From positions 2,584,501-2,648,500 of the forward strand of contig NZ_BPIM01000001.1 in NCBI RefSeq assembly GCF_026004115.1: 64,000 nucleotides of DNA, written 5' to 3'. This DNA comes from Meiothermus sp. (GTDB lineage Bacteria; Deinococcota; Deinococci; Deinococcales; Thermaceae). Below the pieces are notes generated by a model that ran no database searches, was not told where the DNA came from, and saw only the letters and a list, made by a program, of their open reading frames with translations. The translations under genes and the position numbers were made by a program. Of the stretch, positions 4,924-44,293 are shown piece by piece; positions within the stretch are counted from its first letter, which is position 1; each line of letters opens with the position of its first letter.

Positions 4924-4953
4924 AAACGCCCGCAATGGCTCCTGCGGGCGTTT
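4924..4953. terminator. Bidirectional intrinsic terminator between the aminotransferase gene and tRNA-Ser
   Basis: Perfect 11-bp stem AAACGCCCGCA (4924-4934) and TGCGGGCGTTT (4943-4953) with an 8-nt loop. It ends in TTT on both strands and lies between two convergent transcripts, so it can stop both. Confidence 0.8.
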
Positions 4954-4956
4954 GGC

Positions 4957-5047
<91 letters not shown>

Positions 5048-5082
5048 AGGATGTGCTGTACCTGCCAGAGCAGGCAAGCCTG

Positions 5083-5111
5083 AGTGTACAGGGCGGTATA
5101 AGGAGCGTCAA
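5083..5111 (-). promoter_or_regulatory. Promoter of tRNA-Ser
   Basis: On the minus strand TTGACG (5106-5111) and TACACT (5083-5088) are separated by 17 nt. The -10 lies about 35 nt before the mature 5' end, leaving room for a short leader trimmed by RNase P. Confidence 0.75.
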
Positions 5112-5123
5112 GCTGGGCTGCGT

Positions 5124-5129
5124 TATACT
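5124..5129 (+). promoter_or_regulatory. -10 box of a leaderless promoter for the PIG-L deacetylase
   Basis: TATACT ends 6 nt before the GTG start at 5136, the spacing of a leaderless transcript. No clear -35 is visible, because the upstream bases are shared with the divergent tRNA promoter. Confidence 0.5.
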
Positions 5130-5135
5130 CTGGGC

Positions 5136-12951: not shown

Positions 12952-12955
12952 TTGA

Positions 12956-13789: not shown

Positions 13790-13855
13790 GGTTTGTAAGC
13801 CTCCTTTACATTGCAAGGTGTTTTTTGCGGTATGCCGTGTCTTTACCTAACAACT

Positions 13856-14943: not shown

Positions 14944-14975
14944 AAGTTAAGGATAGTGGGTAAAGGTTGGGTAAA
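14944..14975 (-). promoter_or_regulatory. CpxR-like tandem operator and -10 before the AI-2E/protease/mntH operon
   Basis: On the minus strand, TTTAC (14971-14975), N6, TTTAC (14960-14964), N10, then TAACTT (14944-14949) ending 5 nt before the GTG. The halves are 11 bp apart, as for OmpR-family dimers, and occupy the place of a -35. The same design is seen at 27121, 32804 and 44262. Confidence 0.65.
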
Positions 14976-22421: not shown

Positions 22422-22473
22422 CCTTTTACCGTGGCCATACCTTGGATTGTCCAGCTCTTCCGAGAGGTTTAGT

Positions 22474-23727
22474 GTGAGCAAAAACAAACCACCGCACCTG
22501 CTATCGCTCAGGTTTTTTGCATCAAGCGAGCAATCTGGCGAGATTTCATATGACTGGAAGAAGGTGGGTTTACCTGGGGTGGTGGGGTTTCTCCTCTCGC
22601 TCGCTCTGATGGCCTGCAAATCACAACCCCAAACAGCCACCCCATCGGTACAAGGGGCTTCGAGCCCGCCTGCTCCTACCGCGGTAGGCTCCCCCCTATA
22701 CACCGGCCTCCCGGGGATGCCGCCGTATGATCCGCACAACGTGTATGCTTTCACCCAAGCGGGGATGCTTGCGCCTGCGGTGAAGGATTTTCCCCAACGG
22801 GTATATGTACCCGATGGCAAGACCAACCGGCTTTACGTGATCGACCCCAAGACCTACCGGATCGTAGATAGTTACCCTGTGGACGCCGTGCCCCAGCACG
22901 TGGTGCCCTCCTACGACCTCAAGACACTCTACGTGGTGAACGACGTGGGTCAGACCCTCATCCCGGTAGACCCCAAGACCGCCAAGCCCGAGCTCCGCAT
23001 ACGGATTGCCGACCCATACAACCTATACTTCACCCCCGACGGAAAATACGCGCTGGTAGTGGCTGAGGTCAAACAAAGGCTCGACTTCTATGATCTTCAG
23101 ACCTGGCGGCACAAAAGCTCAATCTCTGTTCCCTGCAAGGGGGTCAACCACATGGACTATAGTGCCGACGGGCGTACCCTGGTGGCGGCCTGCGAGTTCA
23201 GCGGAGACCTGCTGAAAATCGATGTGGCCGCGCGCAAGCTCCTAGCCAAGATTAGCCTGGGGGGAATGCCTCAGGACGTCAAACTCTCGCCCGACGGCCA
23301 GATATTCTACGTAGCCGACATGATGGCGGGCGGGGTACACCTGATCGACGCGGAGAAGTTTCAGCCGATGGGCTTCATCCCTACCGGAAAGGGGGCCCAT
23401 GGCCTCTACCCCAGCCGCGACGCGAAGTACCTGTACATCTCCAACCGGGGAGAGGGCTCGGTGAGCGTGCTGGAGTTCGCCACCCGTAAGCTGGTGGCCA
23501 AGTGGAAGATCCCCGGTGGGGGTAGCCCGGACATGGGCGGGGTCTCGGCGGATGGGAAGCAACTGTGGTTGGCCGGGCGCTACCACGGGGAGGTCTACGT
23601 CTTCGACACCGACCCGAAGCAGGGCGGCCTGATCCGTCGCATCAAAGTGGGCAAAGGGCCGCACGGGCTGGCCATCTACCCCCAGCCGGGCCGGTACTCG
23701 CTAGGGCATACCGGGGTGACCCGATGA
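22474..23727 (+). CDS. YncE-type beta-propeller lipoprotein (YVTN/cytochrome-D1-like repeats)
   Basis: Exported protein with a lipobox LALMAC about 45 residues after the GTG at 22474; the Cys is followed by a Pro/Ser/Ala linker and then seven-bladed-propeller repeats such as VYVPDGKTNRLYVIDPKTYRIVDSYPV, PQDVKLSPDGQIFYVADM and GAHGLYPSRDAKYLYISN. The fold resembles YncE and NirF-like proteins that act in the periplasm. The start is uncertain: the 22474 form gives an unusually long n-region, and a GTG at 22564 would give a normal signal. It overlaps the next gene by ATGA, so it heads an operon with a deacetylase, PAP2 phosphatase, RR and HK. Confidence 0.78.
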   Translation: MSKNKPPHLLSLRFFASSEQSGEISYDWKKVGLPGVVGFLLSLALMACKSQPQTATPSVQGASSPPAPTAVGSPLYTGLPGMPPYDPHNVYAFTQAGMLAPAVKDFPQRVYVPDGKTNRLYVIDPKTYRIVDSYPVDAVPQHVVPSYDLKTLYVVNDVGQTLIPVDPKTAKPELRIRIADPYNLYFTPDGKYALVVAEVKQRLDFYDLQTWRHKSSISVPCKGVNHMDYSADGRTLVAACEFSGDLLKIDVAARKLLAKISLGGMPQDVKLSPDGQIFYVADMMAGGVHLIDAEKFQPMGFIPTGKGAHGLYPSRDAKYLYISNRGEGSVSVLEFATRKLVAKWKIPGGGSPDMGGVSADGKQLWLAGRYHGEVYVFDTDPKQGGLIRRIKVGKGPHGLAIYPQPGRYSLGHTGVTR

Positions 23728-24461
23728 GAAGATGGCTTGGGATCGGCCTGCTGCTATGGGGAGCAGTATGGGCTGCCCCCGCGCCGATTACCCACGGTTC
23801 CCGGCAGCATCCGCGGATCGCCCTTACTTTCGACGCCGACATGACCCCGGGCATGCGGCAAAACCTGCAGAGCGGCCGGGTCAAAAGCTACAACCCCACC
23901 GAGCTGTACCGCTTGTTGGAGCAACACCGGGTCAAGGCCACCTTCTTCCTGAGCGGACTCTGGATAGAAGCCTACCCGGAGCAATCCCGCAGGCTGGCGC
24001 AGAATCCTCTGTTCGAACTGGAAAACCACAGCTATAGCCACCCTGCTTTTGCGCAACCCTGCTACGGGCTACCTACCGTCCAAGCCGCCGAGAAAGCTGC
24101 GGAAATTCGTAAGGTTCAGCGCTTGCTCGAGGGCCTAGGGGTCAATAACCGTTATTTTCGCTTTCCGGGGGGCTGCTATGGCCCCGACGATCTGGCCTTG
24201 GTGAAGCGGCTGGGGCTTCAGGTGGTGCACTGGGACGCGGCGGGGGAGGATGGGGGGCAGACCGACCCTGGGGTGATTGTACGCAACGTGCTGAGCCGGG
24301 TGCAAAATGGTTCTATTATCGTACTGCACAGCCAGGGTGGACCGCGTCTCCCCGCCACGCTTCCGGCCCTCAGGCGGCTGATTCCGGCCCTGAAGGCCCG
24401 GGGTTTTACCTTTGTCAAAGTCTCTGAGTTGCTTGCTGAACCAGCCGGTATGCGCAAGTGA
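23724..24461 (+). CDS. Secreted polysaccharide deacetylase (NodB domain), first copy
   Basis: Protein of 245 residues: signal peptide MRRWLGIGLLLWGAVWA, then a NodB domain. Motif 1 is LTFDADM (catalytic base and metal Asp), motif 2 is HSYSHP (two metal His), motif 3 is RFPGGCYG, and motif 5 is IIVLHSQGG. It removes acetyl groups from cell-wall or exopolysaccharide GlcNAc outside the cytoplasm. The ATG at 23724 overlaps the preceding stop. A related, longer deacetylase is encoded at 29226. Confidence 0.87.
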   Translation: MRRWLGIGLLLWGAVWAAPAPITHGSRQHPRIALTFDADMTPGMRQNLQSGRVKSYNPTELYRLLEQHRVKATFFLSGLWIEAYPEQSRRLAQNPLFELENHSYSHPAFAQPCYGLPTVQAAEKAAEIRKVQRLLEGLGVNNRYFRFPGGCYGPDDLALVKRLGLQVVHWDAAGEDGGQTDPGVIVRNVLSRVQNGSIIVLHSQGGPRLPATLPALRRLIPALKARGFTFVKVSELLAEPAGMRK

Positions 24462-24476
24462 TATTGGGAGGACATC

Positions 24477-25133
24477 GTGATTAAATCATCCCGCCAAATT
24501 CTTAAGTCGGTGCTCTTGTGGGTTCCACTCTGGCTGCTGGCTCTTTTGTTCCTGAGCCTGCTGGGGTTTGTGGGGCTGGCCGAGGACGTCTACGAACGGG
24601 AAGGGTTTTTTTTTGACGGGCCGGTGCTGGCCTTTTTGCACGCCCAGCAGAGCGACGTGTGGAACACGCTGGCCCTGGCCTTCACCCAGTCCGCCTCCGC
24701 TCCGGTGGTCGGGGGGCTCGCCCTGGGGGTGCTGGTCTGGGCCTATTTCCGTCGGCTGGGGTGGCCTGTTTTCGCTCTAGGTCTGGGCGGTGCGGTGCTT
24801 CTGAACCAGGCCGCCAAACTCTTTTTTGCCCGCGCCCGGCCTCATCTCTTCCCACAGCTCACCCCTGAACACGACTACAGCTTCCCCTCCGGCCACACCA
24901 TGGCCAGTCTGGCCCTGGTGCTCGCGTTGTACGCATTGCTGATGCCCCGCTTTCCCCACGTGGCCCGCTGGCTTTTGGGCCTGGGCTTGCCGTGGGCCTT
25001 GCTAGTAGGCCTCTCCAGGCTCTACCTCCAGGTACACTACCCTTCGGACGTGCTGGCAGGGTGGGCCTTGAGCTTTCTGTGGGTATTTGGGGTGGGGCTT
25101 TGGTACCGCTGGGCGGTGGGCGGGAGGGGTTAG
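24477..25133 (+). CDS. PAP2-family membrane phosphatase
   Basis: Membrane protein of 218 residues with five or six helices. The three PAP2 motifs are present: KLFFARARPHL, PSGHTMASLA and SRLYLQVHYPSDVLAG. Such enzymes dephosphorylate undecaprenyl pyrophosphate or phosphatidylglycerol phosphate at the outer membrane face. The GTG start at 24477 follows a GGGAGGAC ribosome site. It lies directly before a response regulator gene (3-nt gap), hinting at an envelope-linked regulatory unit. Confidence 0.87.
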   Translation: MIKSSRQILKSVLLWVPLWLLALLFLSLLGFVGLAEDVYEREGFFFDGPVLAFLHAQQSDVWNTLALAFTQSASAPVVGGLALGVLVWAYFRRLGWPVFALGLGGAVLLNQAAKLFFARARPHLFPQLTPEHDYSFPSGHTMASLALVLALYALLMPRFPHVARWLLGLGLPWALLVGLSRLYLQVHYPSDVLAGWALSFLWVFGVGLWYRWAVGGRG

Positions 25134-25136
25134 CCA

Positions 25137-25793
25137 ATGCGTATTTTGCTGGTGGAGGACGACCTCGAGGTAGGGGCTTTGGTCAAAGAGACGCTCGAGG
25201 CCGAACCCTATGCAGTGGACTGGGCCCAGGATGGCGAGGAGGCGCTGGGGCTTTGGCAGAGCTTTCCTTATGACCTGATGGTGCTGGATGTGGGCTTGCC
25301 CCGGCGGGATGGTTTCAGCCTGCTGACCCACCTGCGCGAGCAGGGCTGGGCGGTGCCGGTTCTGGTGCTGACCGCCCGAGATGGCCTGGACGATCGGGTA
25401 CGGGGGCTGGAAGGGGGGGCCGACGATTACCTGGTCAAACCCTTCCACCTGCGGGAACTCAGGGCCCGGGTGCGGGCCCTGCTGCGCCGCTCCAGGGGTG
25501 TTTCTAGTAACCGGGTTGAGGTTGGTCGGCTCTCGCTCGACATCCGGGCCAAGCAGGCCTGGTGGGCAGGAGAGGCGCTCGAGCTATCCGCCAAGGAGTG
25601 GCTAATCCTAGAGTTTCTGGCTCTCCATGCCGACACTTTTTATCCCCGGGAATTGCTTTTGGAGCACGTATGGCCTGGTGAGGCCAGCATTGACCCGCGC
25701 AGCCTCGACCCCTATATCTCCCGTCTGCGCCAAAAACTAACTCCAGAAGCCATCGAGACCCGACGTGGGCTGGGCTACCGGTTGGTCGGATGA
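25137..25793 (+). CDS. OmpR/PhoB-family response regulator (RR1)
   Basis: Regulator of 218 residues. The receiver domain has LVEDD at the N-terminus, the phosphoacceptor D51 (LMVLDVGLP), Thr in VLTARD and Lys in YLVKPFH. The winged-helix DNA-binding domain starts near residue 125 and ends with IETRRGLGYRLVG. Its stop overlaps the kinase ATG. No promoter lies directly ahead; it is transcribed with the PAP2 gene. Candidate targets are the tandem repeats at 17047 and 17693, by proximity only. Confidence 0.92.
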   Translation: MRILLVEDDLEVGALVKETLEAEPYAVDWAQDGEEALGLWQSFPYDLMVLDVGLPRRDGFSLLTHLREQGWAVPVLVLTARDGLDDRVRGLEGGADDYLVKPFHLRELRARVRALLRRSRGVSSNRVEVGRLSLDIRAKQAWWAGEALELSAKEWLILEFLALHADTFYPRELLLEHVWPGEASIDPRSLDPYISRLRQKLTPEAIETRRGLGYRLVG

Positions 25794-27108
25794 GTCTTCG
25801 CCTGCGACTTACGCTATTCTACGCCCTGCTGGTCGGGGGGTTTTGCTGCTGGCCGGGGTGGGGCTGCGGCTGGGCTTGGAGCGCATTTTGCAAGATGAGC
25901 TGAACCAGAGCCTTCAAGCGGCGCTGATTCTGGCCGAACCCTGGGTCAATAGCGACAACGGTCGCCTAAGCCTCAGTCAGGAGGGTGAATTGCCGCCGCA
26001 ACTGCCACCCGACCTGGCGTTGCTACTGTATAGCCCTCAGGGCCTGGTAGAGGCATTGGGTCAAAAACCTAGACCTTTACCTGTCGCGCAGACCGGTTGC
26101 TTTGCTGCTGTGGGCTGGTGGTTTTGTGGGCGCAAAGTAGAAGGGGCTACCCTGCTAGCAGGTCGGCCCCTGGCGGGGATCGAGGATAGCCTGACCGCAC
26201 TCAACCGGGTGCTCTGGGTGGTCGCGCCGGGAGCTTTGCTCCTGGCGTTGGGGCTGGGCTACTTTTTGGTAGGGCGGGCGCTCAGTCCGGTACGCATTCT
26301 CACCGAGGCTGCCCGTGAGCGGGCTGTTGGTCGAATCTGGAACCGCCCCCTGCCCCAGCCCCCGGTGCGAGACGAGCTTTTTACCCTCAGCCAGGCCTTC
26401 AACGCGCTGCTGGAGAGCCTGGGTGAGCTGATCGAAAATGAGCGGCGCTTCACCCAGGATGCTGCCCACGAGCTGCGCACCCCGCTTACGGTGCTTCTAG
26501 GGCGGCTCGAGCAGGCCCAGGAAAAAAACCTTGACCCCCAGGTAGCCCGTGCCCTGGAACAGGCTTACCGCTCGGCTCAGCGGCTGTTGGCTTTGGTAGA
26601 AAAGCTGCTGCACCTGGCCCGAGCCGAGGCTGGCCAAGGGCTGTTGCGAGAGCCGGTGCTGCTCAACCGAATGCTTAGCGAGGAGGTGGAGGACTTGAGG
26701 CCGCTGTTCGAGGCAAAAGGCTTGGCCTTACGGGTCTTCTTGCCGGAAGAACCGTTGGAGGTGATGGGGGATCGATTGGCTTTAGGGCTGGCGCTGCGCA
26801 ACCTTCTTGAGAACGCCCTCAAGTTTACGGTTGCGGGCGAAGTGCGCCTGACCTTGCGCAAAGAGGGTCAAGAGGCGCTGTTGCAGGTGGAAGACACCGG
26901 AGGAGGCTTCCCAGAGGAGGCGCTGCCCCATCTGTTTGAGCGGTTCTATCAGGCCCGAGTAGAGCACCGCCGCAGTGGGAGCGGCCTGGGGCTGGCGCTG
27001 GTTGCGGCTATTGTGCGCTGGCACGGAGGAACCGTAAAAGCAGTCAACCTTTCCCCGGGAGCCCAGATTGGGGTTCGTTTGCCACTGCACATCGGATCCG
27101 GCCGCTGA
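25790..27108 (+). pseudogene. Sensor histidine kinase HK1 with a frameshift at a G6 run
   Basis: The frame from ATG 25790 (ATGA overlap with RR1) reads MSLRLRLTLFYALLVGG and then fails at GGGGGG (25835-25840), reaching a stop soon after. The -1 frame continues without break as VLLLAGVGLRLG..., with a HAMP region, H-box DAAHELRTPLTVLLGR near 26460, N-box NLLENALKF, G1 VEDTGGGFP and G2 SGSGLGLALV, to 27108. One more G, or slippage at the G run, restores a normal kinase of about 438 residues. All catalytic motifs are intact, so the gene may well be functional; a sequencing error or slippage must be separated from true inactivation. Confidence 0.8.
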
Positions 27109-27120
27109 TTCCAACCCACT

Positions 27121-27152
27121 TTTACCCAATCTTTACTTGGGCGACGTACTCT
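27121..27152 (+). promoter_or_regulatory. CpxR-like tandem operator and -10 before RR2
   Basis: TTTAC (27121-27125), N6, TTTAC (27132-27136), N10, then TACTCT (27147-27152). On the other strand this is GTAAA-N6-GTAAA, close to the E. coli CpxR box (GTAAA-N5-GTAAA). The position suggests activation and autoregulation of the second two-component pair. Confidence 0.7.
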
Positions 27153-27171: not shown

Positions 27172-27852
27172 ATGCGGGTGCTTTTGGTAGAGGATGACCC
27201 CCGGCTGGCTGCGTTGATTGCGGAGGGATTACGCGACGATGGGTTGATGGTGGATCACGCCCCTAACGCCGCCATCGGGCGGGGCATGGCCGAGCTGGAA
27301 GCGTATGATTTGCTGATCCTGGACGTGATGCTGCCGGAGGGCCCCCAGGCTGGCTTTGACCTGGCCCGCGCGCTGCGTAACCGGCGGGACAAAACCCCTA
27401 TCTTCTTCCTAACGGCTCTAGGGGATATAGACTCCAAGCTCACCGGGCTCGATACCGGGGGGGACGACTACCTGACCAAACCCTTTGATTTTCGTGAACT
27501 CAGAGCCCGTATCCGGGCCTTGGTGCGGCGGGCCAGAGGTGAGGCGGTCAATCGGATCCCCCTACCGGGGGGCTATACCCTCGATCTTGCAGCCCACCAG
27601 GTGCTGAAAAACAACAAGCCAATCCCGCTTACCCCGAGGGAGTACGCCCTGGTAGAGTGCCTGGGGCTAAACCCGGGCCGGGCTTACAGCCGCAACAGCC
27701 TGATCGAGCGGGTCTGGCCCGGGGAGAGCGAGGTGGACACCAAGGTAGTGGACGTATATGTCTCGAGCCTGCGGCGCAAGCTGGGGGAGGACTTCGTCGA
27801 AACGGTGCGGGGGCTGGGTTATCGGCTGGGGCGGATGGAGGAGAGCCCTTGA
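27172..27852 (+). CDS. OmpR/PhoB-family response regulator (RR2)
   Basis: Regulator of 226 residues with LVEDDP, phosphoacceptor D51 (LLILDVMLP), FFLTALGD and YLTKPFD, then a winged-helix domain ending VETVRGLGYRLG. It is preceded by its own promoter carrying a tandem GTAAA-type box, so it is the best candidate for the factor that binds all such boxes in this window. The stop overlaps the TTG start of the kinase gene. Confidence 0.92.
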   Translation: MRVLLVEDDPRLAALIAEGLRDDGLMVDHAPNAAIGRGMAELEAYDLLILDVMLPEGPQAGFDLARALRNRRDKTPIFFLTALGDIDSKLTGLDTGGDDYLTKPFDFRELRARIRALVRRARGEAVNRIPLPGGYTLDLAAHQVLKNNKPIPLTPREYALVECLGLNPGRAYSRNSLIERVWPGESEVDTKVVDVYVSSLRRKLGEDFVETVRGLGYRLGRMEESP

Positions 27853-29159
27853 GCCTGCGCTGGCGGCTAACCCTTTATTACACGGGTATTTCTGCAGGGT
27901 TGCTGCTCCTGGGTAGCCTGGTTTTGTTTTTGATGCTGCGCACCACTTTACAGCAGGCTCTTGATGACTCCTTACGCGAGGCCGTTGCTCTGGCTACAAG
28001 CCAGCTTGAGCCGAGTCTGCCCGATGCTACTGAAAGCACAGAACTGTTCCTAACTAAGCTGCCAGGATCCATAGTGCTACTGGTGTACAATTCCCGCGGC
28101 CTACAGGTTAGGAGCTACGGGGTTCCCCCTGTGCGTACGACCCCGCTGCCCGGCTTTAGCTCGGTGGATGGCACCCGCATCTATGGTGAAATCTTAGCCG
28201 ATGGAAGCGTAGTGCAAGTGATGCGCTCTGAGTCTGAGACCCGTCGCAGCATTCGCCGCGTACAGGAGTTACTGCTCCTGAGCCTTCCGTTGCTGCTGCT
28301 GCTGGGCCTGGGAGCAGGCTACCTGCTTGCCGATCGCGCCCTGCGTCCGGTGGATCAGGTGACCCGCTTGGCAGCTCAGATAGCGGCCTCGGGGCGCTAC
28401 AGGCAGCGGGTTCCTGAGAGTCCCGGCACAGATGAAATGGCCCGCCTGACCCATACCTTCAACGCCATGCTGTCTCGCCTTGAGCAGGCTATAGAACGCG
28501 AAAAAGCTTTTGCCCTAGCCGCAGCTCACGAACTGCGCACTCCGTTGAGCCTGCTTCAGGGACGGGCCAGCTTAAGTTTGGAAAAACCACGTTCGCCAGA
28601 GCAGTATCGTCAGGCCCTGGTGGAGATTGCCCATACCGCGGAGGATCTCGCACAGGTCATTGAGGCCCTGTTGTTACTGGCGCATACCCAGTCGCCCTTT
28701 GACCCAAAGCCCGTGGAACTGGATCTGCTGGCGCTAGAGGCTCAGGAATCTTTGGAGGGGTTGGCTAAAGAGCGACAGGTGCGTTTGGTGCTACAGCTCG
28801 AGCGCGCTCCCTGTAGAGGTGACCCCCTCACCTTACGAACGGCCATCACCAACCTGCTCTCCAATGCCATCAAGTACGGGCCGCTGGGGGGTAGGGTCTG
28901 GCTGCGCACCCGGTGCGAGGGGAGGCTAGCGGTGGTGGAGGTGGCCGATGAGGGGTCGGGCATTCCCCCCGAGCAGCTCGAGCGCCTTCTGCAGCCCTTT
29001 CAACGTGGGATAGGTACCCAGGGGGTGCGCGGGGCTGGGCTAGGCCTGACCCTGGTCATGGCCATTGCGGAGCAGCATGGGGGGGGGTTGAGACTGCAGA
29101 ATGTCCCTGAGGGGGGGCTGTTGGCCCGCTTGGAGCTGCCGGCGAGCGGCTCATGTTAG
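27849..29159 (+). CDS. Sensor histidine kinase (HK2), partner of RR2
   Basis: Membrane kinase of 436 residues. TM1 lies near residues 8-32 (LYYTGISAGLLLLGSLVLFLML), a periplasmic sensor of about 110 residues follows, and TM2 is LLLSLPLLLLLGLGAGYLLA. Then come a HAMP region, H-box LAAAHELRTPLSLLQGR, N-box NLLSNAIKYG, G1 DEGSGIPPEQL and G2 GAGLGLTLVMA. The start is a TTG overlapping the RR2 stop (TTGA), the only start in place. The sensor domain is not recognised; given the box before htrA, envelope stress is a plausible signal. Confidence 0.9.
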   Translation: MSLRWRLTLYYTGISAGLLLLGSLVLFLMLRTTLQQALDDSLREAVALATSQLEPSLPDATESTELFLTKLPGSIVLLVYNSRGLQVRSYGVPPVRTTPLPGFSSVDGTRIYGEILADGSVVQVMRSESETRRSIRRVQELLLLSLPLLLLLGLGAGYLLADRALRPVDQVTRLAAQIAASGRYRQRVPESPGTDEMARLTHTFNAMLSRLEQAIEREKAFALAAAHELRTPLSLLQGRASLSLEKPRSPEQYRQALVEIAHTAEDLAQVIEALLLLAHTQSPFDPKPVELDLLALEAQESLEGLAKERQVRLVLQLERAPCRGDPLTLRTAITNLLSNAIKYGPLGGRVWLRTRCEGRLAVVEVADEGSGIPPEQLERLLQPFQRGIGTQGVRGAGLGLTLVMAIAEQHGGGLRLQNVPEGGLLARLELPASGSC

Positions 29160-29225
29160 TCTGGTTTGTCGGTTCTATACCGCTTTTGTACGCTTGGGGA
29201 ATTTACAATCATGTCCGGTGCTTCT

Positions 29226-30458
29226 ATGCGAGTATCTTCCTTTTTTTTAGTTTCATGGTTTCTTGCGACCTGCGCGGCTTCACCGGCTCCCTTGCCTAAA
29301 ATCGTGCCGGTGGTGCCCGGCGAAACTCAGCCCGTTGCTCCTGGAACCCGGATCGCTCAAGCGCTGCCCCAGCTCGAGATACTTCCTTCCATTCCCGAAG
29401 TGCGCAAAGTTGAGTACGCCTCCAATGGCTTTATCGAGGTGGCTCACGCCCTGGTGCTGATAAGCGATACACAACCGGCCTATATGTTGCGCAAGGCCCA
29501 GCAGGTGGTTAACCGGGTGTTTATGGCCCGGCCTAGCCTATCCGAGGTGGATGTTTCACTGTATCGGCAAGACCAATACGCTGGCTTCGGCGGTCCTCTG
29601 CCACACTTTACTGCCTCGGTACCTCGAGCCCGACTCGAGGCTTTCGAGCGCCTGACCCCTACGAACTTCCAAAGCTATGAACGGTTGTGGGCCAATCCCC
29701 GCGACTACCTCTATGGCCCTTTTCGTAGCCCCAGCGACGATCTGGAAATTGCTCTGCATTTCCAGGGCTCTCCCGCCCAGCTTATAGCCCAACAGCTCGA
29801 GCAAGCGGCTGCAGCCCTCCAGGGTGGGGCCGTAGGAAACCGCTTCTACCACGGCAACCCTGCCCTTCCCTTGGCAGCTCTCACATTCGATGACGCCCCG
29901 CATCCGCTTTTTGCCCCGCTGCTTTTGGACACCTTACGTCGGATGGGGGTCAAAGCCACCTTCTTTTGCATTGGACGTAACGCCCTGGCCTATCCCTACT
30001 TCGTTCGTGACATGGTTCACGAGGGTCACGAGGTCGGCAATCACACTTTTCATCACGTCCGCCTCAACAACCTCGATAAAGCCAGGGTTCTGATGGAGAT
30101 TCAGTCTGCAAATCAGCTGCTTGAGGGCATTACTGGGCGCTCGGTGCGCTACTTCCGTCCCCCTGGGGGGCGCTTCTCGCCTACCGTGCTCGAGGTCATG
30201 CGCGAGCTAAACATGACCTTGGTCTTCTGGACCGACGATCCTGGCGACTTCCAAAATCTACCCGAGGCCACCCTTGAGAGCCGCCTAGATCGTAGGCTCC
30301 GCCAAGGAGGGATTGTGTTGCTCCATGACAATGTGCGCTCGACCCTCGAGATTCTGCCAAATTTCCTGCGCCTTGCCGAGCGGCGGGGAATCCGACTGGG
30401 CACGGTAGATGATTTGGCTCAAAACCGTCTTAGCACGACACTCCCGCCGAGCCCTTGA
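29226..30458 (+). CDS. Exported polysaccharide deacetylase (NodB domain), second copy, with N-terminal extension
   Basis: Protein of 410 residues. The N-terminus (MRVSSFFLVSWFLATCAAS) has a possible lipobox LATC. About 190 residues of unrecognised domain follow, then a complete NodB domain: LTFDDAPHP, GNHTFHHVRL, RYFRPPGGRFS, VFWTDDPGDF and IVLLHDN. It should remove acetyl groups from wall or surface glycan. In-frame ATGs also exist at 29211 and 29166; 29226 gives the best signal peptide. A TACAAT box lies just upstream near 29203. The N-terminal domain may bind the substrate. Confidence 0.82.
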   Translation: MRVSSFFLVSWFLATCAASPAPLPKIVPVVPGETQPVAPGTRIAQALPQLEILPSIPEVRKVEYASNGFIEVAHALVLISDTQPAYMLRKAQQVVNRVFMARPSLSEVDVSLYRQDQYAGFGGPLPHFTASVPRARLEAFERLTPTNFQSYERLWANPRDYLYGPFRSPSDDLEIALHFQGSPAQLIAQQLEQAAAALQGGAVGNRFYHGNPALPLAALTFDDAPHPLFAPLLLDTLRRMGVKATFFCIGRNALAYPYFVRDMVHEGHEVGNHTFHHVRLNNLDKARVLMEIQSANQLLEGITGRSVRYFRPPGGRFSPTVLEVMRELNMTLVFWTDDPGDFQNLPEATLESRLDRRLRQGGIVLLHDNVRSTLEILPNFLRLAERRGIRLGTVDDLAQNRLSTTLPPSP

Positions 30459-30551
30459 CCAAACGAGAATAGTTCGGTATCACCGCAGTTTTCCCTTTTT
30501 GAATTCAAATGCTTTTCATCGCCAGGGACTTATCAATAGGGGGTTGAAAGT

Positions 30552-31664
30552 ATGACATATGTTCAGAAAAAGCAGGACACCCCACTGCCTTTGCACAAAA
30601 CCCCCGGACGTTTAGACTCGCTGGATGTGTTCCGCGGTCTCACTATCCTGCTGATGCTGCTAGTAAACAACGTTGCCCTTGACGCCCAAACCCCGTATCT
30701 GCTGACCCATGCACCCTGGAATGGTGGGGTGTATCTGGCCGACCTGGTGTTCCCCTGGTTCTTGCTGGCTGTGGGTGTAGCCATCCCCTTCGCGGCGACA
30801 AGCTTCCGGAAGAAAAATCTCCCAGGCTGGCGCTATGACCTCAAGGTTCTCCAACGGAGCATCTTGCTTTTTGGGTTGGGTCTGGCAATCGTTAGCAGTA
30901 TAGCCAAGCGCCCCGTCTTTGCACTGGACGTGCTTCAGCTCATCGCAATGGCTTATCTGGTCGCGGCTTTGCTGTACGACCTTCCCGTCCATCGCCGGGC
31001 GATGATCGCGGGGTTTTTTCTAGTGGCTTACTGGGCGGCCATCCGCTACTTGCCGGTACCAGGGGTAGGACGGCCCATTTTCGAGGAAGACCAAAACCTG
31101 ATCCTGCACTTCAACAACACCTTTTTGAACGCGGTTAATCTGCGGGGGCTGCTCTCGGTAATCCCGACATCGGCTTTGGTGATGCTGGGAAGCCTGATCG
31201 GGGATTTATTCCGCCTCGAGATGTCCTTTTTACGCCGCACGGCCTGGCTTTTCGGGATCGGCCTGGGCCTCACTGCCCTGGGAATGCTGTGGAATCTCAG
31301 CCTGCCCTATAGCAAAACTTTCTGGACTCCTTCCTATATTTTGCTCGCGGCGGGATTGGGCGCTCTCCTGCTGGGGGTCTTTCACTGCCTGGTGGACGCC
31401 CGGGGCTGGCGCGGCTGGGCCTTCCCGCTCAAGGTGTTTGGTTCGAACGCTCTTTTTGCCTACGTGGTGCCGATCCTGGTCAAGGTTTGGCTGTTGCAGG
31501 GAATGAAGATAGATGGAGCCTCGGTTCAACAGTATGTTCTCAATTTCTGGCAAGGCTTGGCCGGGAGTTATGGCGGAGGCTGGCTCTATACCCTCAGCTA
31601 CATCGCTTTCTGGTGGCTGGTGCTGTGGGGGCTGTATTGGAGGGGAATTTTCTTGCGGGTTTGA
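30552..31664 (+). CDS. Membrane acyltransferase, DUF5009 / HGSNAT-like (COG4299)
   Basis: Integral membrane protein of 370 residues with about ten helices. The N-terminus RLDSLDVFRGLTILLMLLVNN and the following APWNGGVYLADLVFPWFLLAVGVAIPFA are the diagnostic start of the heparan-alpha-glucosaminide N-acetyltransferase-like family, which moves acetyl groups across the membrane to amino sugars. Next to two polysaccharide deacetylases it may re-acetylate or otherwise modify the same glycan; this is inference. The ATG at 30552 follows a GGGGGTTGAAAG ribosome site. The ~110 nt after the stop show no gene before the IS. Confidence 0.85.
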   Translation: MTYVQKKQDTPLPLHKTPGRLDSLDVFRGLTILLMLLVNNVALDAQTPYLLTHAPWNGGVYLADLVFPWFLLAVGVAIPFAATSFRKKNLPGWRYDLKVLQRSILLFGLGLAIVSSIAKRPVFALDVLQLIAMAYLVAALLYDLPVHRRAMIAGFFLVAYWAAIRYLPVPGVGRPIFEEDQNLILHFNNTFLNAVNLRGLLSVIPTSALVMLGSLIGDLFRLEMSFLRRTAWLFGIGLGLTALGMLWNLSLPYSKTFWTPSYILLAAGLGALLLGVFHCLVDARGWRGWAFPLKVFGSNALFAYVVPILVKVWLLQGMKIDGASVQQYVLNFWQGLAGSYGGGWLYTLSYIAFWWLVLWGLYWRGIFLRV

Positions 31665-32803: not shown

Positions 32804-32835
32804 TTTACCGAACTTAAACCATACCCAGCTACCCT
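32804..32835 (+). promoter_or_regulatory. CpxR-like operator and -10 before the Rieske operon (copied from htrA)
   Basis: TTTAC (32804-32808), N6, TAAAC (32815-32819), N10, TACCCT (32830-32835). The bases TTTTTACCGAACTTAAACC are identical to those upstream of htrA at 44278-44296 (minus). Confidence 0.65.
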
Positions 32836-32875
32836 CTAGGCTGTGCTTGCGGATGCAAGCCGAGGAGAGACAGCC

Positions 32876-32971
32876 ATGAAGAATACCGTACTCAAAACCT
32901 CCAGCCCGTTGTCGATAGTGGTGCTTTCCGGTTTGGCCTTAGGGCAGGGTTACAGCATTGCCCTGGAGTAG
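32876..32971 (+). CDS. Short leader peptide derived from the HtrA signal sequence
   Basis: A 31-codon frame reads MKNTVLKTSSPLSIVVLSGLA... and stops at TAG (32969-32971). Its first ten residues are identical to those of HtrA at 44221, and the leader GCTTGCGGATGCAAGCCGAG before it is the same too. The TAG overlaps the GTG of the Rieske gene by one base (TAGTG), so ribosomes may pass straight on. It has a signal-like hydrophobic stretch but no mature part. Confidence 0.6.
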   Translation: MKNTVLKTSSPLSIVVLSGLALGQGYSIALE

Positions 32972-33600
32972 TGAGTGTTATGGAAGAGCGTGGAGCCCAG
33001 ACGGAAGAAGCGGAAGAGCGGGCTATGCCTACCCGCCGGGCGGTCTTGCAGGCCGCCATCGGTACTGCGTCGATATTTACTGCTTTATCTGTTCTGTATG
33101 TAGGGGCGGGTTTGATCCCAAGAGTCACCAAGACCCCCGAGAACGCACCGCCCCAGGTCGGAGATATCCTGGTCTATGCTACCGGGGACAAAATAAACCA
33201 ATCGGTTCAGGTGACGGACCTGCCCGAAGGAGGGCCGTTTCTGCTGGCCTTTCCCATGGATCCCAAGACAAAAGTAGTGCGCAACAAGGAACTTAAGAAC
33301 ACCCTATTGATCCTAAAGCAAGCCCCCAGCAGCTACGATCCTCAAGTAGCTGCCCATGTATCCGAGGGCGTTGTTTGCTATTCTGCCATCTGCACGCATC
33401 TGGGCTGTACGGTAAGTCTGTGGGAGGCTAGTCAGAAGTTGCTACGATGCCCCTGTCACGGCGCACTCTATGACCCTCGCCTCGACAAAGTGGTGGGTGG
33501 GCCAGCACCTCAGCCCCTGGCCCAACTGCCCATTCGTATAGAGGGCTCCCAAATCGTGGTAGCGGGCGAGTTCCTGGGCCCGATAGGAGCACAGGTTTAG
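32971..33600 (+). CDS. Rieske [2Fe-2S] iron-sulfur protein
   Basis: Protein of 209 residues. The N-terminus has a twin-arginine-like PTRRAVLQAAIG followed by one membrane helix (TASIFTALSVLYVGAGLIP), as in bc1-type Rieske proteins. The cluster motifs are CTHLGC at 141-146 and CPCHG at 160-164, supplying two Cys and two His ligands plus the disulfide pair. It would serve as electron carrier of a cytochrome bc-like complex or an arsenite-type oxidoreductase. No cytochrome b gene is adjacent; EamA and UspA genes follow. The GTG start overlaps the upstream leader-peptide stop. Confidence 0.9.
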   Translation: MSVMEERGAQTEEAEERAMPTRRAVLQAAIGTASIFTALSVLYVGAGLIPRVTKTPENAPPQVGDILVYATGDKINQSVQVTDLPEGGPFLLAFPMDPKTKVVRNKELKNTLLILKQAPSSYDPQVAAHVSEGVVCYSAICTHLGCTVSLWEASQKLLRCPCHGALYDPRLDKVVGGPAPQPLAQLPIRIEGSQIVVAGEFLGPIGAQV

Positions 33601-34026
33601 ATGGCAAACTGGGCGGTGTGGGCTCTGCTCTCAGCCTTCTTCGCGGCTCTGACTGCCATTCTGGCCAAGCTGGGCCTTCGTGGCGTAGATTCTGATTACG
33701 CCACCCTGATTCGCACTTTTCTGATTTTTTGGGCTTTGTTGGGGTTTGTGGTGTTGACAGGAAAATGGAGCGATCCCCTGAGCCTGCCGGGTTCTACCTG
33801 GCTTTTTCTGGGGCTCTCGGCACTGGCTACCGGGGCCTCCTGGGTGGCTTACTTCCGGGCTTTACAGCTCGGCGAAGCCCACCGGGTGGCCCCGGTGGAC
33901 AAGCTTAGTGTGGTGCTGGTGGCTCTACTGGCCATGCTTTTTCTTGGAGAACGCCCGAGCCTGCGGGAATGGATGAGTATCACCCTGGTCACCCTGGGGG
34001 TACTGGTACTGGCTCTCAAGCGCTAG
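33601..34026 (+). CDS. EamA-family transporter, half-size
   Basis: Membrane protein of 141 residues with about five helices, a single EamA (DMT) unit: WALLSAFFAALTAILAKLGL, a short loop, three helices, and LMGERP-like VLVALLAMLFLGERPSLREW followed by a last helix. Half-size members act as homo- or heterodimers. The substrate is unknown. The ATG follows the Rieske TAG without a gap, so they are co-transcribed. Confidence 0.87.
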   Translation: MANWAVWALLSAFFAALTAILAKLGLRGVDSDYATLIRTFLIFWALLGFVVLTGKWSDPLSLPGSTWLFLGLSALATGASWVAYFRALQLGEAHRVAPVDKLSVVLVALLAMLFLGERPSLREWMSITLVTLGVLVLALKR

Positions 34027-34043
34027 CCTGTAAATAGGCTTTT
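34025..34043 (+). terminator. Weak hairpin after the EamA gene
   Basis: AGCCT (34025-34029), a 6-nt loop, AGGCT (34036-34040) and TTT. The 5-bp stem is short, so termination is probably partial. Confidence 0.35.
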
Positions 34044-34088
34044 GGGTCTGCAGATGTCTTTTGAATCCCGTGTCTGAAAGGAGTGTGT

Positions 34089-34919
34089 ATGTTCGAACGA
34101 ATCCTGGTTCCCTACAACAGCGGTACTAGTGCCCAGATGGCCTTGCAGCAGGCCATTCAGATCGCCCAAAGTCACGGCGGAATTATCCACGGGCTCAACG
34201 TCTTTGACCCGGCGCCCTATCAGAACGAACCTCTGCTAATGGACATGGGCAACGGCCTGCCGCCCCAGCCCGTAGATCCAAATCTATCTGTGGAGGCCCA
34301 TCTGCTTAAAATTGCCGAGGATCGAGCTAAGGAGAGTCTTGATCACTTCGAGCGTGAATGCCAAGCTTCCGGTGTGCGTTTTACCTCTGAGTTGCGTATG
34401 GGGAATGTGGCCTACCAGGTGCTTGAGGCCGCTCACCAGGCTGATCTAATGGTATTGGGCAGACCCACAGAGACCCGCAAGTTGCGTGGCCTGGTGGATA
34501 CCTGGGTGCGCCGCAGCCCTGTACCGGTATGGTTGGCGGTGGAGGCCCCGACACAACCTCAGCAGGTACTACTGGCTTACGATGGCGGGACGCGTGCAGC
34601 GGATGCACTACAGGTAGCGGCCCGACTGGCCCAGAGCTGGCAGCTACCTCTGGGACTGCGAGTCGTACGGGAGGTGGGCCGAGTGGACGAGGCGACCCTG
34701 AAACAGGCCGAGGGTCTATTGCACGAGCTGGGCATAGACCCTGTTTCTGCGGAACTACTTTCGGGACGTCCGGTGGAAATGCTGCTCTCGCTGACTGAGC
34801 CAAGCTCTATTTTGGTAATGGGCACCCATGGTCACGGGGTTTTTTGGGGTCTACGCTTTGGCCGAACGGTGGACGGATTGGTACAGGGAGCCAGGGGAGC
34901 CTTGCTGATTTGCCCCTGA
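34089..34919 (+). CDS. Universal stress protein, two UspA domains
   Basis: Cytoplasmic protein of 276 residues with two tandem Usp folds. The first begins RILVPYNSGTSAQMALQQA and ends MVLGRPTETRKLRGLVDTWVRRSPVPVWL; the second begins QVLLAYDGGTRAADAL and ends LVMGTHGHGVFWGLRFGRTVDGLVQGARGALLICP. The ATP-loop pattern G-x2-G-x9-G is kept only loosely in the second domain. The ATG at 34089 is placed 7 nt after AAAGGAG; an earlier in-frame GTG at 34083 is too close. Likely a stress-response protein. Confidence 0.88.
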   Translation: MFERILVPYNSGTSAQMALQQAIQIAQSHGGIIHGLNVFDPAPYQNEPLLMDMGNGLPPQPVDPNLSVEAHLLKIAEDRAKESLDHFERECQASGVRFTSELRMGNVAYQVLEAAHQADLMVLGRPTETRKLRGLVDTWVRRSPVPVWLAVEAPTQPQQVLLAYDGGTRAADALQVAARLAQSWQLPLGLRVVREVGRVDEATLKQAEGLLHELGIDPVSAELLSGRPVEMLLSLTEPSSILVMGTHGHGVFWGLRFGRTVDGLVQGARGALLICP

Positions 34920-35031: not shown

Positions 35032-35058
35032 TGGGCCTCCGGTAACTAGGGAGGCCCA
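35032..35058. terminator. Terminator at the end of the glucoamylase gene
   Basis: TGGGCCTCC (35032-35040) pairs with GGAGGCCCA (35050-35058). On the minus strand it is followed by TTTTATC, so it stops zwf-glucoamylase transcription. The glucoamylase stop codon lies in its loop. The rest of the 34920-35031 gap holds nothing recognisable. Confidence 0.75.
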
Positions 35059-37340
35059 ATGAATTGGAGAATCTCCACCCTGTAGTCCCGCCCTTCCCAC
35101 CCCTCCTCGAAGCGCCGGGTGAACTCGAGCGAGCGGTGCCCCTCGAGCTTTGCAGCATTGAGCTGAACCCCAAAACACCCCAGCCCCAGCGCGGTGGCAG
35201 GCAGCTCCTGTACCCCTTGCCAGCCGTCAAAGCCAAAGTGCAAGGTGAAGCGCCGCGTCGCCTCGACCCGGAGGGTTTGGTCGGGGCGGATGACCCGGTA
35301 GGGCGTGTCGGTGCGCCAGTGCAGGATCTCGGGAGGGCGGGGGCTTTGATAGCGCTGGGCTACCTCCTGGAACCACTCGCTGGGATGTGCTTGCTGCCAG
35401 GCCAGGAAGAGCTTGAGGTACTCGGCATGGGCCCAGACCAAAGGCATCGCGCTGCCGGTGGGCCGCCCGGGAAATAGGCCCCGTTCGGGGATCGGCGGGC
35501 TGTCCCAGACCTGCTCCGGGATCAGCCCCCCCAGGCTGGCCGCACGTGCCATGGCCCAGAGATGGGGCCGGGGGTCTTCCCCCGCCAGAAGGGCGTAGTG
35601 GCCACGCTCCCCGCTCAGCAGGGGCCAGGCCCGGCCCACCCCGTTTCCGTCAAAGGGAGTCCCGTCGGGGTGCTCGCCGTAGCCGTCGTGGTTGTAGCGG
35701 TGGTAAAAAGGACCGCTGGGAGTCTCCACCCGCAGCAGAGCCTCTGCCAGCCGTAGGGTATCGCGGATGCGGGGGTCATGCGGCGAGCGCAGCCCAAGCC
35801 GTACCAGGTAGAGAAACTCCAGCCCCACCAGCTCCTCGGCCGCTACCTGCTCACCCTGGCGGTTCTGCACCAGCACCCGGCCCCGTAGGCCCATCGTCCC
35901 TGGGGGTCGGATGCGCACGTAATGGCCCCGCACCCCGTGCTGATGGTCAAGGGGGGTATTCTCCACAAAGGTCCACTCCTCGATCCGCTCGTTCCAGGCA
36001 TCGGCCAGTGAGAGGGCGTAGCTTCGCTCGGGTTCCTCCAAAAAGGCTGCCCCCGCCACCAGCGCGGCCACCTCTACCCCCAGGGTGAAGGGGTTGGCTC
36101 CAGCGTTCTCCTCCCAGCGGTCTTGGGGGCTATAGGGGCCGTTTTGGGCGATAAAACCAAGAGCCTTTTGCACCATCCGCTGCACCTGGGCCCGCTCGGC
36201 TAACCCCCCCTCTTCTTCCAGCCGCGCCGCCAGTAGCACCGGTAGGGCTACCTCGTCGAGCTGGAGGCCCTGCCAGTAGGCCCGCCCATCGGGGTAGAAG
36301 TTCTGCTGCCAGCTTCCATCGGGCCGCTGAGTGGCCACGAGGTAGGCCAGCATCCGCCGGGCGTCCTGCACCTGGCCCGCCGCAAGCAGGGCCATCCCGG
36401 CTTCCACCGCGTCGCGCGGCCAGACCAGGTGGTAGCCGCCGGGGTCGTCGTGGGAGGAGCCCCAGGGGGTGGAGAGGCTGGCCACCACCGCCCCGGGGTA
36501 GGTCGCATCCTCATGCACCCGCAGCACCATGGCCGAGGTACGGGCCATCCGGGTGAGTTCCGGACTCGCTCCCTCGACCTTGAGCCCCCTAGCCCAGGCC
36601 TCCCAGCCCTCCAAGTAGCGTGCCCGCACCGCCCCGTAGCCTTCAGCCAGGCTCGAGGCGGCCAGGGTGTGTGCCCCCTCTGGGATCTTGGCAAACCCCA
36701 GGGCCAGCACCCCCGCGGGGGCCAACAGTTCGCCCATCAGGGCCACATTGCCTCCCTTGGCCTGGCGGAAGCCCCAGGTCATGGCCCCGTTCCGTTGAAA
36801 GTCCTGCCAGCCGTCGGAAAAGCCCACAAAACCCGCACTGGCCCGGGTAAATCCTGGTGCGGCCAGGAGGGCCAGCGCGGCCATCCCTTTCTGGGCATAA
36901 AGCACCGACCCCTCCACCCAGGCGGTGTTGTCGTGGCCGCTGCTGCTCAGGTGGGGGGCCAGCAGCGGATACAGCCGGAAGCCTTCTCCTTCCAGCCGGT
37001 AGTACACCAAGACCACATCGCGGCTGGGATCGGCCAGGAACTCCAGGTTCAGCGTGTAGCCCTCGCCCCGGTGCAGCACCTGGGGTAGGGGTATCTCGGG
37101 GGCCGGGGTCGAGAGGGTATAGGAGCGCACCCGCTTGACCTCGTGCCAAGCCCCCTCGCGGGCCACGATGAAGCCCAGGTCGCGGATCTGCGGCTCGCCG
37201 GTAGAGGGCCAGAAGACCTCGTTAAGGATGCCGTGCCCCAGGGTGAACCAGACCCGGGAGATGCCCAGGGCCGCGCCCACCAGATCCTTATCGCTGGAGG
37301 CCCAGGTAGGAGGAATGCCCGGCGCGCCAAAAGCTTCCAT
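35046..37340 (-). CDS. Glycoside hydrolase family 15 (glucoamylase / glucodextranase-like)
   Basis: Enzyme of 764 residues with the bacterial GH15 plan: an N-terminal beta-sandwich (to about 270) with LGISRVWFTLGHGILNEVFWP, and an (alpha/alpha)6 barrel. Catalytic-site landmarks are YHLVWPRDAVEAGMALL, RWEENAGANPFTLGVEVAAL with the general-acid Glu, and GSAMPLVWAHAEYLKL with the general-base Glu. No signal peptide is seen, so it should act inside the cell on maltodextrin or glycogen ends to release glucose. The ATG at 37340 overlaps the zwf stop, linking glucose release with the pentose phosphate pathway. Confidence 0.9.
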   Translation of the reverse strand: MEAFGAPGIPPTWASSDKDLVGAALGISRVWFTLGHGILNEVFWPSTGEPQIRDLGFIVAREGAWHEVKRVRSYTLSTPAPEIPLPQVLHRGEGYTLNLEFLADPSRDVVLVYYRLEGEGFRLYPLLAPHLSSSGHDNTAWVEGSVLYAQKGMAALALLAAPGFTRASAGFVGFSDGWQDFQRNGAMTWGFRQAKGGNVALMGELLAPAGVLALGFAKIPEGAHTLAASSLAEGYGAVRARYLEGWEAWARGLKVEGASPELTRMARTSAMVLRVHEDATYPGAVVASLSTPWGSSHDDPGGYHLVWPRDAVEAGMALLAAGQVQDARRMLAYLVATQRPDGSWQQNFYPDGRAYWQGLQLDEVALPVLLAARLEEEGGLAERAQVQRMVQKALGFIAQNGPYSPQDRWEENAGANPFTLGVEVAALVAGAAFLEEPERSYALSLADAWNERIEEWTFVENTPLDHQHGVRGHYVRIRPPGTMGLRGRVLVQNRQGEQVAAEELVGLEFLYLVRLGLRSPHDPRIRDTLRLAEALLRVETPSGPFYHRYNHDGYGEHPDGTPFDGNGVGRAWPLLSGERGHYALLAGEDPRPHLWAMARAASLGGLIPEQVWDSPPIPERGLFPGRPTGSAMPLVWAHAEYLKLFLAWQQAHPSEWFQEVAQRYQSPRPPEILHWRTDTPYRVIRPDQTLRVEATRRFTLHFGFDGWQGVQELPATALGLGCFGVQLNAAKLEGHRSLEFTRRFEEGWEGRDYRVEILQFIGPP

Positions 37341-38782
37341 CAATCGCCTCCTAAGGGCCGCCATGCGTGGCCGTCGTCCATCAACCGGGCCATTCCCAGC
37401 GGCCCCTCCGATCCGGCGGAGTAGGGCTCGGGCTGACCGAGCTTCCAGGCAGCGAGCACCGGCTCCAGAATGCGCCAGGCCCACTCCACCTCGTCGAAAC
37501 GCAGGAAGTGGGTTCGGTCGCCCTGTAAAGCATCCAGCAGAAGCTGCTCGTAGGCCGTGTAGGGGGCATCGCCGGGCTGTTCGTAGGGGGCCTCGAGGAC
37601 TACCGGTCGGGCCTCGAGCGCGAGCCCCGGGATCTTGGCCCAGGCCACAAGCTCGAGGGATTCCCGGGGCTTCATACGCAAAACCAGCCAGTTGCACCCA
37701 GGGGCCTTGGGGCCAAAGAACCGCATGGGCACGTCGTGGAACTGCAGCGCTACCTCGGCGTAGTCGGCGTGAAGCCGTTTGCCGCTGCGCAGATAAAAGG
37801 GCACCCCGCGCCAGCGCCAGTTATCCACATACAGCTTGAGGGCGGCGAAGGTCTCGGTGGTGGAGGCGGGCGGGATGTGCGCTTCCTGCCGGTAGCCCGG
37901 TACCGCCTGCCCCCCCAGGCTTCCGGCGGCGTACTGCCCCCGTACTGCAAAATCGTCCACCTGCGCCGCTGGGATGGATCGCACCGAGCGCAACACCTCA
38001 ACCTTGTGCTCGCGCAGCACCTCGGAGTCCCATACCGAGGGGGGCTCGAGGGCCATCAGGGTAAAAAGTTGCATCAGATGGTTTTGCAGCATGTCACGTA
38101 AGGCCCCAGCACGGTCATAGTAGCGCCAACGGCCCTCCAGGCCGAGGGTTTCGGCGTAGGTAATCTGGACTTGCGCGATGTGCTGAGCGTTCCAGATAGG
38201 CTCCAAAAAGCGGTTGGCAAAGCGGAAGACCAGGAGGTTCTGGGTGGTCTCCTTGCCCAGAAAGTGATCGATGCGGAAGATCTGGTCTTCCCGCCAAAAG
38301 CGGTGCATCTGCCCACGCAGGGCCTCCGCAGAGGCCAGATCGTAGCCGAAAGGCTTTTCCACGATCAGACGGCGGAAACCCTGATTATCGCCATTCAGCC
38401 CAGCTTGCCCCAGCCCCTCCGCGGCCTGGCCGAATAGATCCGGGGGCAAAGCCAGGTAAAAGAGGGCGTTTTCGGTGAGATCTGCTCGTAGAACGGACAG
38501 CTTCTCGGGGCTCAGGTCGCCCGCGCGGTAAGCGATCCGCTCCCGCAGCCCGCCCCAGACCGCGGGATCGAACTCCGGCACAAAGCGGCGCAGGGCCTGC
38601 TCGAGGTGCGCCAAAAACTCCTCCCGCTTCCAGTCTTTTTCTGCATATCCTAGTAGCGATACCCCCTCCAGATGACCCCGCGTATATAGTCGGTACAGTG
38701 CAGGCATCAGCAGCCGCTGGGTCAGGTCACCGGTTGCACCCAGGATGACCAGGGTTGTGGCATCAGGCGTTTGTGAGTTCAT
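37340..38782 (-). CDS. zwf: Glucose-6-phosphate 1-dehydrogenase
   Basis: First enzyme of the oxidative pentose phosphate pathway, 480 residues. LVILGATGDLTQRLLMPALYRL is the NADP-binding Rossmann motif (residues 12-33); EKPFGYDLASA and the active-site RIDHFLGKET carry the catalytic His and the phosphate-binding Lys. LDALQGDRTHFLRFDEVEWAWRI is the typical C-terminal stretch. Partners gnd and pgl are encoded 2-4 kb away on the other strand. The ATG at 38782 is 8 nt after a possible GAGCAT -10 that follows a weak GTAAA-type repeat. Confidence 0.95.
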   Translation of the reverse strand: MNSQTPDATTLVILGATGDLTQRLLMPALYRLYTRGHLEGVSLLGYAEKDWKREEFLAHLEQALRRFVPEFDPAVWGGLRERIAYRAGDLSPEKLSVLRADLTENALFYLALPPDLFGQAAEGLGQAGLNGDNQGFRRLIVEKPFGYDLASAEALRGQMHRFWREDQIFRIDHFLGKETTQNLLVFRFANRFLEPIWNAQHIAQVQITYAETLGLEGRWRYYDRAGALRDMLQNHLMQLFTLMALEPPSVWDSEVLREHKVEVLRSVRSIPAAQVDDFAVRGQYAAGSLGGQAVPGYRQEAHIPPASTTETFAALKLYVDNWRWRGVPFYLRSGKRLHADYAEVALQFHDVPMRFFGPKAPGCNWLVLRMKPRESLELVAWAKIPGLALEARPVVLEAPYEQPGDAPYTAYEQLLLDALQGDRTHFLRFDEVEWAWRILEPVLAAWKLGQPEPYSAGSEGPLGMARLMDDGHAWRPLGGD

Positions 38783-38790
38783 ATGCGCCT

Positions 38791-38822
38791 ATGCTCTGTC
38801 TGCGGGGTTAGGATTTGGTAAA
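38791..38822 (-). promoter_or_regulatory. Possible CpxR-like operator and -10 of zwf (weak)
   Basis: On the minus strand TTTAC (38818-38822), N6, CTAAC (38807-38811), N10, GAGCAT (38791-38796), then 8 nt to the ATG. The geometry equals that of the four stronger sites, but the second half matches only 3 of 5 bases. Confidence 0.35.
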
Positions 38823-44221: not shown

Positions 44222-44261
44222 GGCTGTCTCTCCTCGGCTTGCATCCGCAAGCACAGCCAGA

Positions 44262-44293
44262 AGAGTAGGATTTGTAGGTTTAAGTTCGGTAAA
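44262..44293 (-). promoter_or_regulatory. CpxR-like operator and -10 of htrA
   Basis: On the minus strand TTTAC (44289-44293), N6, TAAAC (44278-44282), N10, TACTCT (44262-44267). The arrangement is the same as before RR2 at 27121. Confidence 0.7.

Follow-up and report, generated by a model that had tools for sequence, protein, structure and literature searches.

An OmpR/PhoB-family two-component system and its tandem-repeat promoter box as a putative transferable stress regulon in Meiothermus

The window analysed here is a 64,000-nucleotide stretch of DNA from a Meiothermus sp. It encodes an OmpR/PhoB-family response regulator (RR2), in which the receiver domain (PF00072) and the winged-helix Trans_reg_C domain (PF00486) both score above the Pfam cut-off, and a membrane histidine kinase (HK2), whose TTG start overlaps the RR2 stop and which adjoins RR2 in every relative examined. 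Polysaccharide deacetylase and acyltransferase genes directly 3′ of HK2 probably belong to the RR2 operon in this genome, and in relatives, homologues of this gene pair (~52% identity) stand behind another box promoter. The features of the window that concern this system are as follows.

11671..14938, minus strand: operon of an AI-2E family transporter, an SDH-type Clp-fold protease and mntH (Pfam/NCBIfam)
14944..14975, minus strand: promoter of the AI-2E operon, box 14959-14975 and -10 TAACTT 14944-14949, kept in relatives
22425..22456, plus strand: decayed box TTTACC-GTGGC-CATACC before the YncE operon, aligning with intact boxes in five relatives
22486..27108, plus strand: operon (start approximate) of a YncE-like beta-propeller protein, a polysaccharide deacetylase, a PAP2 phosphatase, the response regulator RR1 and the kinase HK1 (Pfam)
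27121..27152, plus strand: RR2 promoter, box TTTACCCAATCTTTACT 27121-27137 and -10 TACTCT 27147-27152, with a conserved footprint in 7 genomes
27172..27852, plus strand: RR2, the proposed reader of the box (Pfam Response_reg and Trans_reg_C)
27849..29159, plus strand: HK2, the proposed partner of RR2 (HAMP, HisKA and HATPase_c)
29166..31664, plus strand: polysaccharide deacetylase and HGSNAT-type acyltransferase genes (Pfam)
32804..32835, plus strand: duplicated htrA promoter (box and -10) ahead of Rieske-EamA-USP, part of a 131-bp copy
32876..32971, plus strand: 31-codon remnant of the htrA signal-peptide ORF, read from the sequence
32971..34919, plus strand: Rieske protein, EamA transporter and universal stress protein (USP) (Pfam)
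35046..38782, minus strand: zwf (glucose-6-phosphate dehydrogenase) and a GH15 glucodextranase-like gene (Pfam/NCBIfam)
38791..38822, minus strand: zwf promoter, box TTTACCAAATCCTAACC, a weak -10 GAGCAT and the ATG ~9 nt downstream, with boxes in relatives
43010..44221, minus strand: htrA, an HtrA/DegP-type protease with a PDZ domain (Pfam Trypsin_2 and PDZ; TIGR02037 below its cut-off)
44262..44293, minus strand: htrA promoter, variant box TTTACCGAACTTAAACC and -10 TACTCT, the variant being kept in relatives

An earlier note on this DNA had described TTTAC-N6-TTTAC repeats, placed N10 before a -10-like hexamer, at the RR2, htrA, Rieske, AI-2E and zwf promoters, and inspection of the sequence found all five sites as described. 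Comparative genomics also bore out a single shared promoter design, which in full is TTTACC-N5-TTTACC (an 11-bp repeat), 9 bp and then a TAnnnT -10, or one extra base per half-site relative to the N6/N10 pattern. The conserved repeat has the form of the tandem direct-repeat operators of the OmpR/PhoB family, with their period of ~11 bp. A genome scan with the bare TTTAC-N6-TTTAC returned 5 matches in the 3.35-Mb genome (2 strict matches within the window) compared to 3 for the reversed pattern, so the bare pattern alone is not enriched. A weight matrix was trained solely on 16 sites from other species, chosen from relatives with the earlier pattern already known, the related genomes being non-independent observations. 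With this matrix, the five sites are the top five of the whole window (AI-2E 33.2, RR2 31.5, zwf 21.6, Rieske 13.6 and htrA 10.6). Window-sized order-3 Markov sequences gave a mean of 0.67 matches of at least 10 and zero of at least 20 in 30 trials, and a background sample of 400 kb from the rest of this genome gave three matches of at least 10 and none of at least 13, none being as strong as the best four sites of the window. Envelope genes across the genome had been expected to collect the hits; instead, the strong sites in this genome are confined to the island, and a genome-wide search allowing up to three mismatches returned mostly intragenic, low-scoring sites outside the window. One weak site elsewhere in this genome (L041, 930-1532) is a 2-mismatch box, TTTACCTGGCCTTTAGC, ~19 nt before an Rrf2-family regulator gene. 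In six relatives, all 22 sites with at most one mismatch lie 5-108 nt before an ORF start.

RR2 at an identity of at least 90% is found in seven genomes including this one, the six relatives being at 90-94%. The distance from the start of the box to the RR2 ATG is 51 nt in all seven, and the box is invariant at 13 of its 17 positions compared to 0 of 59 upstream, with a pairwise identity of 0.91 against 0.31 upstream; the -10 retains its TA and CT. This retention of the box in the promoter of RR2 itself supports the earlier proposal that RR2 is probably autoregulated. Sites with at most one mismatch occur in 7/7 genomes that carry RR2 at 90% or more, compared to 9/43 others of the family, and the box-rich genomes are those with this RR2. 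Of five RR2 relatives in other families (50-71% identity), three (L014, L015 and L018) carry the box at a distance of exactly 38 nt upstream of the start. On Deinococcus plasmids, three of the four PAP2-RR-HK operons, with regulators 52-54% identical to RR2, have it 38-39 nt before the first gene in the form TATACC-N5-TTTACC or a close variant. The boxes of these more distant relatives score 6.3 to 19.4 individually, on a scale where the 95% and 99% levels for random 120-mers are 6.6 and 10.6 bits. A recognisable box before RR2 was not found in G001 and two more distant orthologues (L013, L016 and L017). In the Deinococcus plasmids (L276, L277, L278 and L279), a PAP2 phosphatase gene is followed by the RR2-like regulator and a kinase in 4/4 loci, PIG-L deacetylase and S8 peptidase genes lie nearby in 2/4, and PepSY genes lie upstream in 2/4.

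The operons around RR2 have kept their boxes in relatives as well. In the AI-2E promoter, the GTG start lies 5 nt after the -10, and box, -10 and start distance are retained in G005, G018, G011 and G003; the gene order AI-2E/SDH-protease/mntH is identical in the first three of these. AI-2E orthologues (at least 73%) are restricted to box-bearing genomes, with the box kept in 5/5. The zwf site, which had first been called weak, is backed by a box directly before zwf in 5/5 promoters examined, the relatives being G005, G003, G020 and G023. With only 5-14 nt between the -10 and the start codon, leaderless mRNAs are likely for AI-2E and zwf, and going by its promoter sequence the AI-2E operon is probably transcribed in this form. 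The decayed box at 22425-22456 has a low matrix score in this genome; the order YncE-deacetylase-PAP2-RR1-HK1 behind it is retained in G005, G018, G020 and G023. Further boxed genes in relatives encode a Tat-signal TPR protein with deacetylase and acyltransferase genes, a Na+/H+ exchanger, a YflT-like stress protein and a molybdopterin oxidoreductase.

The htrA box differs from the others in its second half-site, and this variant, TTTACC-N5-TAAACC, is kept in 5/5 relatives carrying this htrA (6/6 genomes including this one), as counted among orthologues that are 83-100% identical. A 131-bp segment that occurs only twice in the genome, in copies 87% identical to each other, supplies both the htrA and the Rieske promoter. 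The Rieske copy includes the htrA gene start, and the stop of the remnant ORF that it left overlaps the Rieske GTG start. The earlier note had counted four or five independent loci; the sites are real, but their independence is overcounted by one, since the Rieske promoter duplicates that of htrA and both sites represent one event. Rieske-EamA-USP stands immediately behind zwf-GH15, and on the same strand, in G005, and Rieske likewise comes after zwf-GH15 in G023, whereas in this genome the block is oriented the opposite way with the duplicated htrA promoter in front. Judging from gene order, the duplicated promoter may have restored the regulation of the Rieske block. A partial transposase ORF (DUF772/DDE_Tnp_1; 32096-32659, minus strand) adjoins the duplicated promoter and is perhaps linked to the rearrangement. 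The htrA leader also contains a hairpin, GCTTGC-GGAT-GCAAGC, just before the ribosome site (44210-44256, minus strand, and 32841-32887, plus strand), which in G011 and G003 reads GCCTGC/GCAGGC, a compensatory change; its folding z-scores are modest (-1.1 to -1.9), and the fold predicted for G005 differs. Deletion of degP in Meiothermus ruber impairs growth at 60 degrees and increases vesicle production (PMC8674399); that degP is possibly a ~60% paralogue and not this htrA.

Comparison of the island between genera points to horizontal movement. With chromosomal htrA-paralogue loci as the only core yardstick, two genomes of different genera, G005 and G018, are 95.4-97.8% identical over ~28 kb of the island, compared to 69-82% for two core loci, and the RR2 and zwf parts of this genome are 84-89% identical to those of G023 (another genus), compared to 68-77% for the core locus. 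Because identity of the island between genera is far above that of core loci, these alignments indicate that the regulator has been exchanged between genera together with its boxes and targets, as an island. A broader proposal, for and against which we consider the balance even, is that the island is a self-contained mobile stress regulon of the Thermaceae in which blocks cut off from their boxed promoters regain another copy, membership being kept while gene order changes. The duplicated htrA promoter ahead of Rieske-EamA-USP, and the deacetylase/acyltransferase genes behind RR2-HK2, would be two examples of such promoter replacement. If this is true, regulon membership persists through changes in gene order, and the island would be a clear case of a regulon that moves as a unit and whose wiring changes when a promoter is duplicated, with implications for the way in which transferred genes remain under control. 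The tLST is also a stress island that has moved horizontally and contains a DegP/HtrA protease; it carries kefB and degP (PMC8290217), and the islands of relatives here carry a cation/H+ exchanger. However, the tLST is proteobacterial and encodes sHsp20, ClpK, YfdX and HdeD, none of which Pfam recognised among the genes of the window that were examined (scans of the relatives' islands covered them in part), while the island here has its own two-component regulator and box. The tLST is probably a functional parallel and not a relative of the RR2 island.

We propose, with a probability of about 0.75, that RR2 and HK2 form a two-component system with its own regulon, in which RR2 is a PhoB-type activator of the island acting through the box. 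RR2 would bind TTTACC-N5-TTTACC as a head-to-tail dimer, and the bound box would stand in for a -35 element, 9 bp upstream of the TAnnnT -10, allowing RR2 to activate housekeeping RNA polymerase as PhoB does at pho boxes. It would switch on its own operon and the nearby htrA (envelope proteolysis), AI-2E/SDH-protease/Mn-transporter, zwf and Rieske-EamA-USP operons, and it may also drive envelope polysaccharide modification through the deacetylases and the PAP2 operon, whose box has decayed here. HK2 would sense a stress signal of the envelope type, as we infer from the targets: an HtrA-type protease, deacetylases, PAP2, Mn uptake, the NADPH supply by zwf and USP suggest envelope and oxidative stress, and the comparison of genomes is in keeping with the stress- and envelope-flavoured regulon that the earlier note envisaged. 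Its suggestion of an activator geometry, with the repeats in the place of the -35, likewise finds support among the relatives. The PhoB site replaces the -35, lies ~10 bp from the -10 and is involved in autoregulation. The pho box consists of two direct repeats with an 11-nt period, one subunit binding each repeat (PMC4415409). The 11-nt repeats and the -35 placement are thus shared with PhoB, but the half-site is TTTACC and not CTGTCAT, and the targets differ, with no phosphate-uptake genes at the sites found. RR2 as PhoB itself was rejected (TIGR02154, 171.3 bits against a cut-off of 296.2).

The same position of the box could also serve repression, with RR2 covering the -35 region and blocking RNA polymerase until a signal frees it, and the cyanobacterial OmpR-family regulator RpaB does repress from sites near the start while activating from upstream ones (PMC11633204). 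The aligned promoters, however, contain no TTGACA-like -35 at a spacing of 16-18 bp to the -10. Basal polymerase would therefore have a poor hold on them, and the constant spacing between box and -10 fits activation. We consider repression unlikely and activation the more probable role of RR2. RpaB also binds tandem (G/T)TTACA repeats (HLR1; PMC11633204), but with a period of 10 compared to 11 here, and the RpaB model gives RR2 146 bits, below its cut-off of 330.

A slightly less likely explanation is that the box is a generic operator for other OmpR-family regulators (RR1, RR3 or others) and that RR2 is merely one target. The host genome has 17 RR2-like matches, and G006 lacks RR2 but has two perfect sites and a further site with one mismatch; this last site precedes a different response regulator (39%), so the box may be read in G006 by a related regulator. 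In Thermus-like genomes (L127, L128, L130 and L132), a similar box is followed by a small Trp/Cys/Gly-rich ORF and then an OmpR-family regulator 38-41% identical to RR2, which suggests another autoregulated system that uses an operator of this type. In view of these exceptions, the operator type may be common to related regulators. Against the generic operator, every RR2 promoter at 90% or more is boxed, as are those of several 50-71% relatives including the Deinococcus plasmids, and in this genome the strong sites are grouped around RR2. RR1 as the sole reader was rejected because its occurrence mismatches that of the boxes: it is present (85%) in the box-free G001 and absent at 85% or more from G011 and G003, each of which has several boxes.

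It is very improbable that the repeats serve an alternative sigma factor as the -35 part of its promoters; the box does keep a constant place relative to the -10, but OmpR/PhoB dimers typically use tandem repeats with an 11-bp period (PMC4415409), the TAnnnT -10 is that of housekeeping promoters, and the box moves together with a response regulator. Least credible is the literal reading of RR2 as a CpxR orthologue with a Cpx regulon: TTTAC-N6-TTTAC is the reverse complement of GTAAA-N6-GTAAA, inside the published N4-8 range of CpxR (PMC5063474), and an htrA/degP-type target is shared, but the best models for RR2 are of the CusR, PhoB, CtrA and PmrA types, all below cut-off, with CpxR (cut-off 341) outside the best 25 NCBIfam matches, of which the 25th scores 103.6 bits. 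The specifically Cpx identity was thus not sustained, the best NCBIfam model of RR2 being of the CusR type (172 bits, below its own cut-off), and HK2 as CpxA was rejected as well (NCBIfam, 109 bits against a cut-off of 486). When GTAAA-N4-8-GTAAA is applied, the RR2 and AI-2E sites fit, while the htrA and zwf half-sites deviate. In addition, CpxR boxes function in both orientations (PMC5063474), whereas orientation and -10 spacing are fixed for the boxes here. 'CpxR-like' is therefore a resemblance only, and the repeat follows a design general to the OmpR/PhoB family.

The RR2-box regulon is a new example within a known type of regulatory system; in open-access papers, we found no description of this regulon or of an envelope-stress regulon for Meiothermus or Thermus. 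It offers a regulator, an operator with a fixed promoter geometry and a list of targets that are testable in tractable thermophiles. Outside this system, an Rfam scan of the window returned a single tRNA and nothing else; this tRNA-Ser (GGA) at 4957-5047 on the minus strand, also found by ARAGORN, lies inside the span of a predicted 288-aa plus-strand ORF (4935-5801).
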